Assembly (NCBI RefSeq): GCF_001509795.1
Contig: NZ_LLZN01000102.1
Location: forward strand, 62,001-126,000
DNA length: 64,000 nt
Source: Streptomyces sp. NRRL WC-3605
Lineage (GTDB): Bacteria > Actinomycetota > Actinomycetes > Streptomycetales > Streptomycetaceae
Direction: 5' to 3'
This document shows, piece after piece, positions 49,141 through 54,966 of this stretch (positions within the stretch are counted from its first letter, which is position 1; each line of letters begins with the position of its first letter). The notes under the pieces were generated by a model. That model searched no databases, was not told where the DNA came from, and saw nothing but the letters and a program-made list of their open reading frames with translations. Both the position numbers and the translations under genes were made by a program.

Positions 49141-50580
49141 TCAGCGCCGCGCCTGGCGTTCCGTGTCGTCGGTGGCGGAGGAGGTGGCGGAGGGGGTGCG
49201 GTCGCGGGTGAACCAGGCCACCGCCCACAGGGCGACGCCGATGAGCAGCAGCACGCCCGCGATGCGGTACTCGTCGCCGGGGCGTCCCGACGACCACGGC
49301 AGCACCAGGTAGAGGCAGGCGACCGCCCCCACGACGGGCAGGACGCGGCCGGCCCGGAAGTGCGGTGCCGCCACCGTGTCCTTGCGCAGCACCAGGACGG
49401 CCACGTGCACACCGGCGAAGACGGTGAGCAGCAGCAGCGAGGTCGTGCCGCCGAGCAGGGCGACGACCGGGCTGTCGGGGTTCAGCGAGACGAACGTGAT
49501 GAGGCCGAAGGCGATGACGGTGGTGAACAGGATCGCCGCCTGCGGGGTGCGCCGTACCGCGTGCACCTTGGACAGGAACGGCGGCAGGACGCCCTTGCGG
49601 CTCATGCCGTACAGCAGACGGCTGGCCATCATCATGTTGATCAGCGCCGAGTTGGCCACGGCGAACATGGAGATGAACGGCAGCAGGTCGGAGATGGGGA
49701 AGTCGGGGGCCGCCGTCTGCACGACGGTGGCGAGCGGCGTCTCGCTGTCGGCGAGGCGGCCGACGGGCACGACCGCGACCGCGCACACGGACACCAGGAC
49801 GTAGATCAGGCCGGTGATGCCGAGCCCGGTGAACATCATGCGGGGGAAGATCCGGGTCGGTTCCCTGGTCTCCTCCGCCATGTTGACCGAGTCCTCGAAG
49901 CCGACCATGGCGAAGAACGCGAGCGACGTGGCGGTGCTGACGGCGAGGAAGACGTTCTTGTCGGAGGCGCTCTCGAAGGCGACGACGCGGGAGAAGTCGG
50001 CGTTCCCCCCGGCGATGAACCAGCCGCTGACAAGGACGACGAGCAGCAGACCCGACAGCTCCACGGCCGTCAGGAACACGTTGACCTTCAGGCTTTCGCT
50101 TACACCCCGCAGGTTGACGAGCAGCACCAGTGCCATGAAGCCGAGGGCGATCGCCAGGATCAGCCCGTCGCCGCCGTCCAGGCCGAACCCGGTGACGAGG
50201 TTGGCCGCGAAGGCTCTGGAGGCCGCCGACGCCGAGGTGATGCCGGAGCACATCACGGCGAAGCACACCAGGAACGTCAGGAAGTGCTTGCGGAACGCCT
50301 TGTGCACGTACAGCGCGGCACCCGCGGCCTCCGGGTACTTGGTGACCAGCTCCAGATAGGAGCAGGCGGTGATCAGGGCCACGGTGAACGCGATGACGAA
50401 CGGCAGCCACGCCGCTCCCCCGACCTCGCCGGCGACCTGTCCGGTAAGGGCGTAGATGCCGGTGCCGAGGATGTCCCCGACGATGAACAGCAGCAGCAGA
50501 CCGGGACCCATGACCCGCTTGAGCGTAGGTTCGCCGTCGGCGTCGGTGGCGGGTGAATCCTTCTGTCCCGTGGATGACAT
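49141..50580 (-). CDS. APC-superfamily amino-acid permease
   Basis: Membrane transporter of 479 residues with 12 helices. The first helix GPGLLLLFIVGDILGTGIYALTG is the substrate-binding unwound helix of APC proteins. FFAMVGFEDSVNMAEETREPTRIFPR is the conserved cytoplasmic loop after helix 6. Substrate could be an amino acid or polyamine. ATG 50580 has GAGGAG upstream. It lies 93 bases downstream of the terminator of the tRNA-Gly gene on the same strand. Confidence 0.93.
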   Translation of the reverse strand: MSSTGQKDSPATDADGEPTLKRVMGPGLLLLFIVGDILGTGIYALTGQVAGEVGGAAWLPFVIAFTVALITACSYLELVTKYPEAAGAALYVHKAFRKHFLTFLVCFAVMCSGITSASAASRAFAANLVTGFGLDGGDGLILAIALGFMALVLLVNLRGVSESLKVNVFLTAVELSGLLLVVLVSGWFIAGGNADFSRVVAFESASDKNVFLAVSTATSLAFFAMVGFEDSVNMAEETREPTRIFPRMMFTGLGITGLIYVLVSVCAVAVVPVGRLADSETPLATVVQTAAPDFPISDLLPFISMFAVANSALINMMMASRLLYGMSRKGVLPPFLSKVHAVRRTPQAAILFTTVIAFGLITFVSLNPDSPVVALLGGTTSLLLLTVFAGVHVAVLVLRKDTVAAPHFRAGRVLPVVGAVACLYLVLPWSSGRPGDEYRIAGVLLLIGVALWAVAWFTRDRTPSATSSATDDTERQARR

Positions 50581-50672: not shown

Positions 50673-50705
50673 CGAGGCCCGTCCGCGTCATGCGGACGGG
50701 CCTCG
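50673..50705 (-). terminator. Terminator of the tRNA gene
   Basis: cgaggcccgtccgc (50673-50686) and gcggacgggcctcg (50692-50705) form a perfect 14-bp stem with a five-base loop. On the minus strand it begins two bases after the CCA end of the tRNA and is followed by TTT. Confidence 0.85.
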
Positions 50706-50707
50706 TC

Positions 50708-50780
50708 TGGAGCGCCGGGCAGGCCTTGCACCTGCATCTCCCCGCAGGAAGCGGGGCGTCTTTCCTTGGACCACCAACGC
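50708..50780 (-). tRNA. tRNA-Gly (anticodon UCC), divergent form
   Basis: The minus strand folds as a complete cloverleaf of 73 nt. Acceptor GCGTTGG pairs with CCGGCGC (two G-U). The D arm GTC/GAC has loop CAAGGAAA including GG. The anticodon stem CCCCG/CGGGG has loop CTTCCTG, giving UCC for glycine. The variable region is AGAT. The T arm GCAGG/CCTGC has loop TGCAAGG. The 3' end is U73 and encoded CCA. U8, A14, A15, G18, G19, A21, U33, C56 and A58 are as expected. Unusual are U37 in place of a purine and G55 in place of pseudouridine 55. A terminator follows at once. It could serve translation or a special non-ribosomal glycyl-transfer role. Confidence 0.82.
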
Positions 50781-50860
50781 AGGGTCGGCGACCGCGAGTT
50801 GCGGTGACCGGCTCTGGGAGCAGCTTAGTACATCCGGGTGAGTGCCCGCGCCCCCGGAGA

Positions 50861-51862
50861 TCAGCCGCCCAGCAGGGGCAGGGTGATCCCGCACCGGACG
50901 GGCCGGGCGTGCGCCGGGTCGAGGGCGTTGCGCACGAGCTGGGCGGCGTTGGTGTCGTAGGCGAGCGACAGATGGTCCGAGACGTCCTGCGGGCAGACGT
51001 CCTGGATCAGGATGTTCCGCACGGTGGCGCCCGGGCCGGCCGTCAGGAAGTTGTTGCGGTAGGGCGTCGCGAACAGGTCGTACCGGGTGGAGACGACCGT
51101 GTACGAGACGCCCGGCCGGGTGTCACCGTCGCGGTCGAGGGTGCGGTTCACCTCGGAGCCCGGCATCTGGTCCGACCACGCCTGGCCGACCACCGCGGAC
51201 ACGGTGGGGTCGAGGCCCAGCCGGCCGGTCACCGTGCCGACCCCGGAGAGGTTCCCGCCGTGGTTGGACGGGGCGAGGGCGATCAGGCGGCGCACCTTGC
51301 CGCGCTCGGGGTGCGCCGGGTCGGTGCCGCCCTCGAAGCGCAGATACCAGCGCGGGGTCGGGCCGCCGCCCTGCGAGTGCCCGACGAGGTCGACCTTGCG
51401 GGCGCCGGTCGCCTTCAGGACGCGGTCGACGTACCGGGCGATCTGCCGGGCCGACTTCGGCACGGGCCCGGTCGCCTTGAACGGGTTGCCGGGCGTGCCG
51501 CCGTAGTTGGGGGCGAAGACGCAGTACCCGAGGCTCTTCAGATAGGGGGCCAGCATGCTCCAGTTGTTGTAGGCGTTCGCCGCCGAGCCGTGCAGCAGGA
51601 CGACCGGGCGGGGGTGCGCGCGCGAGGGGCGGCACGACCAGTCGTCGGCCCCGGCGGGGGCCGCCTCCGGGTGGACGAGCCCGTACGCCACCGCCGTGGC
51701 GAGGTCGAGGGCGGGGACGGGGGCGGGAGGCGCGGGGGCGGCGGACGCGGCGGCCGGGCCCGTCAGGCCGAGGGCCAGCGGCAGGGCGACCGACGCGCAC
51801 AGCGCGGCCCAGCGGCCGCCCGGCCGGTTCGCACGGCTGCGGGAAAGCGTCCGGTCCGCCAT
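50861..51862 (-). CDS. Secreted triacylglycerol lipase-like alpha/beta hydrolase
   Basis: Secreted protein of 333 residues. A signal peptide spans about residues 1-42 (ending ASA). RPVVLLHGSAANAYNNWSMLAPYLKSLGYCVFAPNYGG is the oxyanion-hole region of Lipase_2 proteins. VDLVGHSQGGGPTPRWYLRF carries the nucleophile Ser, and the histidine is within QDVSDHLSLAYD. Two pairs of cysteines fit extracellular disulfides. GAGGAG is upstream of ATG 51862. Substrate is lipid ester by family. Confidence 0.9.
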   Translation of the reverse strand: MADRTLSRSRANRPGGRWAALCASVALPLALGLTGPAAASAAPAPPAPVPALDLATAVAYGLVHPEAAPAGADDWSCRPSRAHPRPVVLLHGSAANAYNNWSMLAPYLKSLGYCVFAPNYGGTPGNPFKATGPVPKSARQIARYVDRVLKATGARKVDLVGHSQGGGPTPRWYLRFEGGTDPAHPERGKVRRLIALAPSNHGGNLSGVGTVTGRLGLDPTVSAVVGQAWSDQMPGSEVNRTLDRDGDTRPGVSYTVVSTRYDLFATPYRNNFLTAGPGATVRNILIQDVCPQDVSDHLSLAYDTNAAQLVRNALDPAHARPVRCGITLPLLGG

Positions 51863-52009
51863 CGTCACTCCTCGTCTCCGGGCCGGCCCAGCGCCGACGC
51901 GAAGATCATCGGGGACTGCCGGGGCACCGGGTGCCGGGGCCGCTCCCGGCACCTCCGATGGAGCAGGCGCTTTTCATCCGGCCGGCCCAGCCGGCGCTCC
52001 GCGCGGGGG

Positions 52010-53061
52010 TCAGGCCGCGGCCTTCTTGCGCCGGCGGCCGCCTCCCGCGAGGGCGTCGATCAGCTCCTGGCGGCTCATCCGGGACCGTCCGGGGATCTCC
52101 CGCTCGGTGGCCCGTTCGTACAGCTCGGCCTTGCTGAGCTCGCGCAGCTCGCTCTTCTTCGGGGCGTCGGAGGTCTTGCGTGCCGAAGTCTTGGGCCTGG
52201 CGGCGGACTTGGACGCCGGCTTCCTGCCGCTCCGGGCACCGCCGCGTTCACCGCCGCGCTCCCCGCCCCGCTTCTCGCGGCCGGAGCGGGCGCGGTCGAT
52301 GCTGCCCTGGAGGACCTCCATGAGGTCGACGACGTTGGTGGCGGTCGGCGCCTCCTCGGCCGGGGCCACCTCCTGGCCCTCCGCCTTGGCCTGCATGAGT
52401 TCGCGCACCTTCTCCTCGTAGGTGTCGTGGTAGCGCGACGGGTCCCACGGGCCGCTCAGGGCGTCGACCAGTTGCAGCGCCATGTCGAGTTCCTTTCCGC
52501 TGCCCGCCCGCCGCTCGGGGAGCTGCGGCAGCTCGCGGGTGGGGTCACGGACCTCGTCCGCCCAGTGCAGGGTCTGGAGCATCAGCACCTTGTCCTCGGC
52601 GCGCAGCGCGGTGAGGTACTGCTTGCCCCGCATCACGAAGGTGGCGACACCGATCCGGTTCGCCTTCTCCAGGGCGGCGCGCAGGAGTTCGTACACCTTG
52701 AGGTGCTCCTCGCCGCGCGGCGCGAGGTAGTAGGTGCGGGCGAAGTAGACCGGCTCGATCTCGTCCAGGTCGACGAAGTCGGAGATCTCGATGGTGCGGC
52801 TGCGGCCCGGCGCGATCTCGTCCAGCTCGTCCGGCTCGACGATGACGTACTCGCCGTCGGCGACCTCGAAGCCCTTGACGATGTCGTCGCCGGACACCTC
52901 CTCGCCGGTGCGCTCTTCACGCGGCGGTTGCGGATGCGGTCGGAGGTGCCGCGCTGGAGCTGGTGGAAGTGCACGGTGTGGTCCGAGGTGGCCGTGTACA
53001 GGCCGACCGGCACGCTGACCAGCCCGAACGTGATCACACCTGTCCAGATCGCCCGTGCCAT
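52010..53061 (-). pseudogene. ku: Ku DNA-end-binding protein gene disrupted by a one-base deletion
   Basis: Ku bridges broken DNA ends for ligase D in bacterial non-homologous end joining. The first 48 codons from ATG 53061 read [20 protein letters not shown] and onward as normal Ku. The rest of a normal Ku, from [40 protein letters not shown] to the SAP-like tail [41 protein letters not shown], continues in a different frame. One base is missing just after GTGAA at about 52915-52916. Without it the first frame runs into KSAPARRCP and an unrelated sequence. Everything else is intact and well conserved, so this is either a recent mutation or a sequencing error. No ligD lies nearby. Confidence 0.9.
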
Positions 53062-53334
53062 GACCGTCCCGCTCCGTCGTCTCCGTCCGGGTCCCGGCAC
53101 CCTCGCACCGGCCCGCTCCCGCCCTCCACGCTGGCACCACCGGGGCGGTGGCGCGCGGTGAGCCGGGTGGGCCGGGGGCCGACTGGTGGAAAACGGGCCA
53201 GGCGGAGGGGGACCGGGACGACGAGGACCGTCGGACCGTTCGTCCGCTCCGGGGACAGACGATCCGTCGGACCACCCGCCCCGGGAACGCCGGCCGGAGT
53301 GGGCAAACGGCTGGCCGGGGCCGTGAGCCCCGCT

Positions 53335-54555
53335 TCAGCCGCTCTCGGCGCCCCGGCCCGGCCGGCTCTGGTGGAGGTGTTCCAGGGCGTCCAGGACGAC
53401 GGTGCGGCGGTACCAGGAGCGCCAGGCGGCGACGTCCGCCGCGAGGCGCGCGAGTTCGGCCCGCCGGGTGGGCCCCGGCCAGATGCCCGGCGCGTTCCTG
53501 TGCACGGTCAGCGTGCCGGTGCAGTACCTCTCGGCGGTGATCAGGGGCACGCTGTACACGGCCCGGCAGCCCGCCGCCAGCAGGGACCGACCGGCCGGGT
53601 GGGCCGAGAGTGCCTCGTCGGCGGCGACGTCGGGCACAGCGACCGGCTCCAGCCGTTCCTGGGCCACGGCGCAGACCACGGGCGGTTCGGTGACGAGAGC
53701 GACCTCGTCCCAGTAGGCGGCGTCCAGCCCCCGGTGCCCTTCGAGGAACAGCGCGTGGTCCTGGGCCGGGTCCGTGAAGTGCAGCTCGCCCGCGTCGGCC
53801 TCGGACACGGCGATCGCCGTGTCCAGGGCGGCGGCGAGGATCTGCCGCCGGTCCGTGACGTCTCCGCCGTACGAGCGCAGGAACGCGGTGTCGGGGTGCG
53901 GGGCGTGGGTGCCGCGGCCCGCGAACCAGCGGGTGTCCGTCTGCGGCGGGGGTGCCGTGACGACGGCGGACGCGAGGACCCGCAGCGGCACGTTGCACCG
54001 CTGGGAGCCCTCGCGCAGCAGCGAGAACGCGGCGTCGGGGCCGGGCAGACCGTAGCGGGCGATGAGCATGCCCTGCGCGATGCCGATGAGTCCGCTGGTG
54101 CGTGCCTTGGCGCGGAGCCCGAAGATCTCCCGGCGCAGGCTCTCGGCGTCGGCGGGCGGCTTCCCGGCCCGGCGCGGTCGTGCGGGCCCGGCGCCGGGCG
54201 CGGGCGTGGGGGGCAGGGACGTCAGGGCCTCGATGAGGGTGCCGTGCAGGCGGAGGCCGGGGAGGTCGTCCTGCTCCAGCTCCTTGCGGAGCTCGGGCGT
54301 CGCCACCACCAGGACGGGGGTGGCCGCGAGGTCCAGGGTCTCCCTCCGCAGGGTCCGGCGGGCCGCCTCGTCGACCGTGGGAACCGCCGTCATGTCGAGA
54401 ACCAGCCGATGCCCCTGGCGGGCGGCGCGGTCCAGCTGCCGCGTCAGCTCCCGGGTCAAGACGACGCCGGCCTCGGCGTCCAGTGCTCCGGCCAGGCACA
54501 CCACCGTGACTCGGTCGGTGGCCGGCACCATGGTGAGGGGGGAACGACTGGTCAT
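53335..54555 (-). CDS. STAS-ANTAR-GAF signalling protein
   Basis: Signalling protein of 406 residues with an uncommon domain order. Residues 1-115 form a STAS (anti-anti-sigma-like) domain: [26 protein letters not shown] and [19 protein letters not shown]. Residues 138-200 form an ANTAR RNA-binding domain ([53 protein letters not shown]). Residues 225-400 form a GAF domain ([25 protein letters not shown]). ANTAR binds antiterminator RNA. ATG 54555 has a GAGG nearby. In the same window, the PAS-GAF-SpoIIE phosphatase at 36398-38113 acts on STAS substrates in its family. Confidence 0.9.
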
Positions 54556-54966
54556 CGTGCCTCGCTCTTCCGCTCCTGTCGGCCGCGTGCGTCGGACGGG
54601 CGGGTAGTCGGTGTGCCCGCCGCCCGACCGCATCTCCACCCTCGCTCGCCTGTGGCGTGAGGGCAAGGAGAGAAAACCGTCGAGGGGCACGCGGCCGTGG
54701 CCGAACGCCGGAGCGGCCGGTCACGAACGGGTGCGGGCGCCGGACGCCGGTTCCCTCGGTGCCGTGCGGGGTCGCGGGCGGGGCGGGCAGCAGCGACCAG
54801 GCCACGAGGACGACCTTGTTGGCGCCGATGGCGCAGCAGACACGGGCCGGGGGTGTCGCCGTGCGGGTCTCCGGGTGGTCGCACCCGCCGCTGCCGCGCG
54901 CCCGGCGCACCCCCACCGGCGGCGAGGCGCGCCCGGCACGGGCCGCGGCGCGCCCGGCGCCGGCGG
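54556..54966. other. 411-base intergenic stretch, no gene recognised
   Basis: Between the STAS-ANTAR-GAF gene start and the ferritin-like gene end. Open frames pass through, including one continuous with the ku frame on the minus strand, but none has a recognisable start region or protein character. The part nearest 54555 is the likely promoter of that gene. Confidence 0.5.

Follow-up and report, generated by a model that had tools for sequence, protein, structure and literature searches.

A single tRNA gene, an atypical tRNA-Gly(UCC), was identified on the minus strand (50708..50780) of the window, by which we mean the whole 64,000-nucleotide stretch of Streptomyces sp. NRRL WC-3605 DNA that was analysed. 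On sequence grounds, the gene is real and not decayed, and it belongs to a conserved, dispersed family of single-gene cassettes in Streptomyces and its linear plasmids. We propose a function to which we give slightly less than an even chance: the product would be a functional, dispersed tRNA-Gly that is charged by the housekeeping GlyRS and serves mainly as a non-decoding pool of glycyl-tRNA, or as a stand-in for attack on it. The features of the locus are as follows.

50861..51952, minus strand: upstream neighbour, alpha/beta hydrolase or class 2 lipase (PF00561, 1.5e-13; PF01674, 5.6e-11)
50828..50832, minus strand: extended part of the -10 element, TGTAC (family consensus TGCGC; the second G is absent here), from the motif search
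50822..50827, minus strand: -10-like element TAAGCT, from the sequence and the family promoter motif
50781..50821, minus strand: 5' leader with an inferred start site and a predicted hairpin at about 50786-50810, from the fold
50708..50780, minus strand: atypical tRNA-Gly(UCC), from ARAGORN, the fold, family members and stem pairing
50745-50751, minus strand: anticodon loop CTTCCTG, within the tRNA
50724-50730, minus strand: T loop TGCAAGG, within the tRNA
50674..50704, minus strand: intrinsic terminator, a perfect 13-bp hairpin followed by GGCGTTTCC (short T run), from the sequence
49141..50580, minus strand: downstream neighbour, amino acid permease with an uncertain start codon (Pfam PF13520, 2.1e-39)

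The permease and hydrolase genes showed no sign of belonging with the tRNA gene. A Ku-like gene elsewhere in the window, 52010-53100(-), appears to be broken across two reading frames. The beginning of the Pfam Ku domain is matched (29.1 bits) by the open piece 52633-53100, and Ku-like residues seem to continue in another frame of the ORF 52010-54916, reflecting a sequencing error or a broken gene.

The gene was the sole tRNA that ARAGORN found in the window, reported as tRNA-Gly(tcc) at 50708-50780(-). Folded alone, the 73 bases formed a cloverleaf, whereas the minimum-energy fold of the whole transcript contained none. The fold energy of the 73 bases was unremarkable (z -1.55; 11 of 200 shuffles were equally stable). 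The acceptor stem (GCGTTGG/CCGGCGC) includes two U-G wobbles. The D stem has 3 bp, with a C-A mismatch at 13-22 and the D loop AAGGAAA, and the anticodon and T stems have 5 bp each. At the 3' end, T73 is followed by CCA, which the gene encodes. The anticodon loop contains U33, the anticodon UCC and U37, and its C32 and G38 are able to pair. In the T loop, position 55 is G, and U54, C56, A57 and A58 are retained; G18, G19, A14 and A21 are all present. The ordinary-elongator features missing from this tRNA are U54-U55-C56 (the GTTCRA arm) and a purine at position 37. The preliminary description had reported a cloverleaf with CCA and its own perfect terminator, which ARAGORN, the fold and the 13-bp hairpin bear out, as well as the UCC anticodon, U37 and G55, with which our reading of the sequence agrees. 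It contradicted itself at position 37: the U of its text is correct, but the purine of its title is not, since the base is a pyrimidine.

Comparison with ordinary tRNAs of the genome and genus

In a search of the NRRL WC-3605 genome (7.58 Mb, 136 contigs), the window tRNA was the lowest-scoring of 68 tRNA matches, with 39.8 bits against the RF00005 cut-off of 29. Rfam cmscan with default filters reported no tRNA at the locus, and RF00005 was absent from the matches listed in a permissive scan of the surrounding 501 bases; filters may be a cause of this discrepancy with the genome search. Rfam families other than tRNA gave chance-level matches only at the locus.

We compared the window tRNA with the other tRNAs of WC-3605. 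Of the 53 distinct tRNA sequences, 52 have a purine at position 37 and the window tRNA is the sole exception, and the GTTCRA T arm is missing only from this tRNA among the sequences listed. C32-G38 occurs in two of the 53, the window tRNA and a tRNA-Pro. When U32-A38 and A32-U38 are included, Watson-Crick 32-38 pairs occur in 11 of the 53, and U32-A38 is present in the ordinary tRNA-Gly(CCC) and tRNA-Gly(GCC). The genome also has one ordinary tRNA-Gly(UCC) gene, whose body is quite different. The two tRNAs share G1-C72, C2-G71, U73 and the anticodon UCC, but the ordinary one differs throughout its body (GCGGGCGTAGCTCAATGGTAG...) and has a GTTCGA T arm and A37. That the gene might be identical to a standard housekeeping tRNA-Gly elsewhere, a possibility named in the preliminary description, is excluded.

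All 199 genomes of the genus, whether or not they carry the atypical gene, contain a match to the ordinary tRNA-Gly(UCC) of WC-3605 (E 6.6e-22 or better among the matches listed). We call these genes tRNA-Gly(UCC)-like by the match and not by the anticodon. GlyRS gave two matched stretches in each of the 199 genomes, which we read as one probable enzyme per genome; no dedicated GlyRS was therefore apparent among these matches.

Conservation within the family and the six-base-loop branch

We collected 206 distinct instances of the family (distinct by 40-nt leader plus body), some of which may be the same species present in two collections. They comprise 47 distinct bodies up to the discriminator. 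The collecting pattern left the anticodon arm, acceptor stem and discriminator free; some positions of the D and T arms were prescribed by it, and the constancy of these arms in the 206 instances is therefore no evidence.

Standard pairs occupied 964 of 966 stem cells in 46 of the 47 bodies, where the body with an insertion was left out and the gap of the six-base loops was fixed in the loop. Among the 39 bodies with a seven-base loop, stem pair 29-37 was GC (26), AT (9) or GT (4), pair 27-39 was CG (38) or TA (1), pair 25-41 was CG (33), TG (5) or TA (1), and pair 5-65 was TG, CG or TA, with one TT. Between the loop branches, 28-38 changed from CG to AT, 29-37 to CG, and 6-64 from GC to CG or TG. 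These counts are of sequences, not events, and the changes at 28-38 and 6-64 may represent few events. The pair corresponding to C32-G38 was CG in all 46 bodies. The fold is evidently kept under selection in the family.

Bacterial GlyRS recognizes G1-C72, C2-G71, C35, C36 and U73 as identity elements. G1-C72, C2-G71 and G3-C70 were present in 46 of 46 bodies, T73 was present in 206 of 206 instances, and 205 of 206 have CC where C35 and C36 would stand, the remaining instance having an insertion. The family thus carries the glycine identity set across these bodies and instances. The window copy has a seven-base loop with U33 and the anticodon UCC, which is kept in 194 of the 206 instances and lacking in 11; the last has the insertion. 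Position 37 of the 194 seven-base loops was T in 172, C in 21 and G in one, a pyrimidine in 193 of 194. The insertion, found in Streptomyces huasconensis (L292 2912-2963), adds five bases (a second CGGGG) to the anticodon arm, and the loop there reads CTCCCCG.

The 11 instances, from two genera, have a six-base anticodon loop (CAGCCG, CAACCG or CATCCG), which lacks U33 and the UCC triplet; the CC remains. Five of them are in G342 and one is in G203, which belongs to another genus; the others come from Streptomyces sp. NRRL S-337, Streptomyces rhizoryzae and three additional stretches. G342 is a complete genome of 8.28 Mb, and its copies are L142-L146. ARAGORN found no tRNA at the six six-loop copies checked (L142-L147), and it also missed two seven-loop copies, L158 and L159. 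None of the five copies of G342 and the one of G203 was among the RF00005 matches of these genomes (66 and 63, respectively). Because both methods miss the six copies checked, annotation probably misses the six-loop copies.

Distribution, dispersal and transcription signals

A DNA search with the 73 bases matched 108 of the 199 Streptomyces genomes, many at 97-100% identity. Such recurrence of the 73-nt body in many other genomes argues that the window tRNA is not a chance sequence. The search scored four candidates per genome, so copy numbers are lower bounds, and the absence from 91 of the 199 genomes applies at that sensitivity. The matches lay at unrelated contig positions, with up to four scored copies per genome, and the genomes with the tRNA were larger than those without (9.07 vs 7.99 Mb).

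A covariance model of the atypical tRNA was built from nine variants. With stricter filters in both searches, it matched 53 of 200 genomes of Streptomycetaceae (E 1e-8 or better) and, at the level of the class, 16 of 296 genomes. The latter set spans 114 genera, and all 16 were Streptomyces. The weaker matches in Streptomycetaceae, of about 47 to 64 bits, came mostly from genera g7 and g14 and are divergent relatives or other tRNAs, some with ordinary T loops. A pattern scan of named genomes gave at least 120 stretches, and the 80 listed were all from Streptomyces except one from Actinacidiphila. Among 72,556 plasmid records, 71 carry the atypical tRNA (69 Streptomyces and 2 Streptantibioticus), at 137 places. 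The carriers include large linear plasmids, and strains of S. clavuligerus account for 16 of the 60 plasmid records listed. A phage origin was rejected, as 50,697 phage records yielded no match and viral contigs none to the exact pattern. G067 and G090 are single-contig genomes with copies at about 31-49 kb from one end and further copies towards the opposite end, an arrangement that may reflect terminal inverted repeats. A literature search covering titles and abstract starts of the best matches, with few subscription papers, found no description of the family.

To see how far the similarity between copies extends, 50 within-genome pairs from nine genomes were compared over 2 kb on each side. 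In 40 pairs, the shared stretch was confined to -60..+130 of the tRNA start, and in several it was the tRNA body alone. The other ten share longer stretches (to -135 or +255). Six of these are in G342, and one consists of two G094 copies 1.1 kb apart, whose compared stretches overlap. A second shared stretch was seen in eight pairs, seven of which involve the two-copy G094 locus. In an ungapped test, 69 of 115 pairs with similar leaders had unrelated flanks. Since within-genome copies share mostly a gene-sized stretch and many flanks are unrelated, we conclude that the gene disperses as a unit of about its own size. An empty-site comparison at the window locus was not clean, as the nearest permease-bearing relative has different DNA upstream of the permease.

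We examined 150 non-redundant upstream regions for promoter elements. The motif search recovered TGCGC-TANRRT-TGATC, whose median start is 52 nt ahead of the tRNA; in most copies the -10 itself lies at about 47 nt. A TANNNT hexamer with its first base 42-52 nt upstream was present in 132 of 150 family members, compared with 1 of 150 at 70-80 nt upstream and 2 of 150 shuffled sequences. The hexamer is not family-specific, being at about the same place in 11 of 36 ordinary tRNA genes of WC-3605. Exact TGNGNTANNNT was found in 84 of the 150 family upstreams, 7 of 750 shuffled sequences and 5 of the 36 ordinary tRNA genes. No strong -35 element was seen in the 150 upstreams. Perfect leader stems of at least 5 bp were present in 69 of 150 family leaders vs 147 of 750 shuffled ones, and perfect downstream stems of at least 7 bp in 119 of 182 distinct family flanks vs 22 of 910 shuffled ones. 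CCA is encoded in 82 of the 206 instances. With 964 of 966 stem cells paired and the promoter and terminator conserved, a tRNA pseudogene was rejected.

Candidate functions and related systems

We propose that the cassette is transcribed from its own extended -10 promoter, and that the transcript would then be trimmed, with CCA added where it is not encoded. The identity positions suggest that the single housekeeping GlyRS would charge it with glycine. It would be used poorly or not at all in decoding, and would form a separate glycyl-tRNA pool for non-ribosomal glycyl transfer or a stand-in for attack on glycyl-tRNA. Poor or no decoding is suggested by the departure from elongators of the anticodon loop (C32-G38, the pyrimidine at 37, and one branch without U33 and UCC) and of G55. 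The stronger points are the pyrimidine at 37, G55 and, above all, the six-loop branch; its lack of U33 and U34, with C35 and C36 present, strengthens the non-decoding idea. C32-G38 is weak evidence. The available part of one source states that Watson-Crick 32-38 pairs often accompany GC-rich anticodons and weaken codon binding (PMC6720975), which the glycine tRNAs of WC-3605 bear out, so that tuned decoding could also account for C32-G38. A non-decoding role has against it that 194 of 206 instances retain U33 and UCC, which allow decoding of GGA and GGG.

In a more specific form, which we hold tentatively and at appreciably less than an even chance, the cassette product would be a glycyl-tRNA released from decoding. 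Its anticodon would be kept only as a mark for GlyRS (in one branch, CC), and it would feed a patchy glycyl transfer or protect against attack. Candidate consumers are the modification of a specialised metabolite, a protein or the envelope. If this is true, roughly half the Streptomyces species sampled have a glycyl-tRNA pool that is set apart and in part invisible to annotation, which would suggest that a tRNA-dependent transfer of glycine has gone unrecognised in the leading genus of antibiotic producers. The family would also be a natural test of which parts of a tRNA are needed for charging and not for decoding, given that U33 and U34 are gone from one branch in which everything else is retained.

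The same loop could belong to an accessory elongator that takes part in ordinary GGA/GGG translation with a tuned-down loop, perhaps under special conditions or for plasmid or cluster genes. We judge this unlikely. The retention of U33 and UCC in 194 of 206 instances suits it, and the location on large linear plasmids fits an accessory tRNA supply. Tuning of GC-rich anticodons by Watson-Crick 32-38 pairs, described in the available part of PMC6720975, and U32-A38 in ordinary glycine tRNAs of WC-3605 point the same way. However, G55 and the pyrimidine at 37 are unlike the other tRNAs of WC-3605, U33 and the UCC triplet have disappeared from an entire branch that is otherwise conserved, and none of the 199 genomes lacks a gene like the ordinary tRNA-Gly(UCC).

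Streptomycetes have a glycine cross-bridge, which favours a dedicated glycine donor for peptidoglycan cross-bridges via FemX-type enzymes, the link suggested by the preliminary description. FemAB was present in all 199 genomes of the genus. The number of FemAB matches was 3.63 in the genomes with the tRNA (n=108) and 3.62 in those without (n=91; p=0.71), and it was unrelated to tRNA copy number (rho -0.09, p=0.22). These equal numbers remove co-occurrence as support for the Fem idea, although use by FemX is compatible with them. The genus-wide cross-bridge also fails to explain a patchy tRNA, not found in 91 of 199 FemAB-bearing genomes. Thus, the cross-bridge link proposed earlier was not supported; what stood of that proposal was the combination of glycine identity and poor-decoding features in a gene additional to the ordinary tRNA-Gly(UCC)-like one. 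We regard a FemX donor as improbable, even with the Staphylococcus aureus precedent given in the available part of PMC8007984.

According to that part of the source, S. aureus has an extra tRNA-Gly(UCC) with loop changes, which is charged well, binds EF-Tu poorly and supplies the pentaglycine bridge (Giannouli et al. 2009, via PMC8007984). As far as this account goes, the Streptomyces gene resembles it as an extra gene beside ordinary ones, with UCC, a low tRNA score and a changed T loop, and its sequence likewise appears fit for glycylation. On the same account, the Streptomyces family differs in that it keeps G18 and G19 of the D loop and has a pyrimidine at 37. Its copies are dispersing single-gene cassettes with their own promoter and terminator, also on plasmids; the gene was not found in 91 of 199 genomes, shows no link to Fem gene number, and has one branch that lost U33 and UCC.

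We searched for other partners of the tRNA. The available part of a review names DhpK and Orf11 as Streptomyces enzymes that use Gly-tRNA in natural-product synthesis (PMC12945691). A strong copy of PF13480 (Acetyltransf_6; E below 1e-30) was present in 71 of 108 genomes with the tRNA vs 36 of 91 without it (Fisher p 3e-4). After adjustment for genome size, the association was weakly positive (logit 0.65, bootstrap 0.11 to 1.37), and it arises partly, not wholly, through genome size. Because these statistics ignore phylogeny, the association is a lead and not a finding. The strong copies are often about 370-400 aa. Those of WC-3605 (two proteins) have no NCBIfam name, and one of them showed no relative among solved structures. 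A LanB/PEARL partner (Lant_dehydr_C, PF14028) was rejected, as it was present in 65 of 108 genomes with the tRNA vs 70 of 91 without it (p 0.015) and is absent from WC-3605.

For a comparison of gene neighbours, 47 sources (the WC-3605 genome, 40 other genomes and 6 plasmid records) supplied 67 stretches of 11-24 kb. Genes were called with a home-made gene finder and clustered by protein similarity; in two of the stretches, the tRNA escaped the pattern used. No widely shared neighbour was found in this set. The most frequent family, which appears LCP-like, occurred in 8 of the 47 sources at varied distances. Subgroups of copies share sites, for example next to genes that, by their sequences, appear to be tsaD and groEL.

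A decoy or spare against enzymes that attack glycyl-tRNA, with a changed loop that resists or absorbs the attack, seems to us about as improbable as the FemX donor. Such attackers include anticodon nucleases and glycyl-tRNA-acetylating toxins. The tRNA is patchy, multi-copy, plasmid-borne and site-changing in the manner of defence and counter-defence genes. However, the absence of a widely shared neighbour family means that no toxin or nuclease partner was seen either, and the searches of the 50,697 phage records and, by exact pattern, of viral contigs were negative. A selfish or neutral tRNA-derived repeat with no host function is the least probable reading: the gene-sized sharing in 40 of 50 within-genome pairs, the patchy presence and the larger carrier genomes (9.07 vs 7.99 Mb) agree with it, but the paired anticodon and acceptor changes and the constant glycine identity and promoter position are unexpected for a neutral repeat, and no mobility gene or end repeats were seen in the aligned stretches.

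Accessory tRNAs have been described in streptomycetes. Like the present family, tRNA-ProX of Streptomyces and Kitasatospora is a patchy, non-standard family beside the ordinary set; it is mistranslating, has a tRNA-Pro body and often adjoins a special ProRSx (PMC10365949). In the window tRNA, by contrast, identity positions and anticodon agree (Gly), and one GlyRS is apparent per genome. Membership in tRNA-ProX was rejected on the basis of the Gly-type ends and anticodon and the permease and hydrolase as nearest neighbours. The tRNA-Asp(AUC) of a desert streptomycete is likewise an accessory tRNA but, in the available part of its source, acts in decoding (PMC9262613).

Genus g14 has a second type of atypical tRNA (L154 2045-4919 and L157 2024-5101), with neighbouring copies about 0.8-2 kb apart. 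It has the T loop TGCRACC, the anticodon loop CTTTCAG and U73. ARAGORN found none in L154 and L157, and called a relative in L156 (T loop TTCAACC) tRNA-Glu(ttc). Genus g7 (L149-L152) has related tRNA-Gly(UCC) genes in which the C32-G38 pair is combined with a T loop of the ordinary TTCRA type; they may represent an intermediate form.
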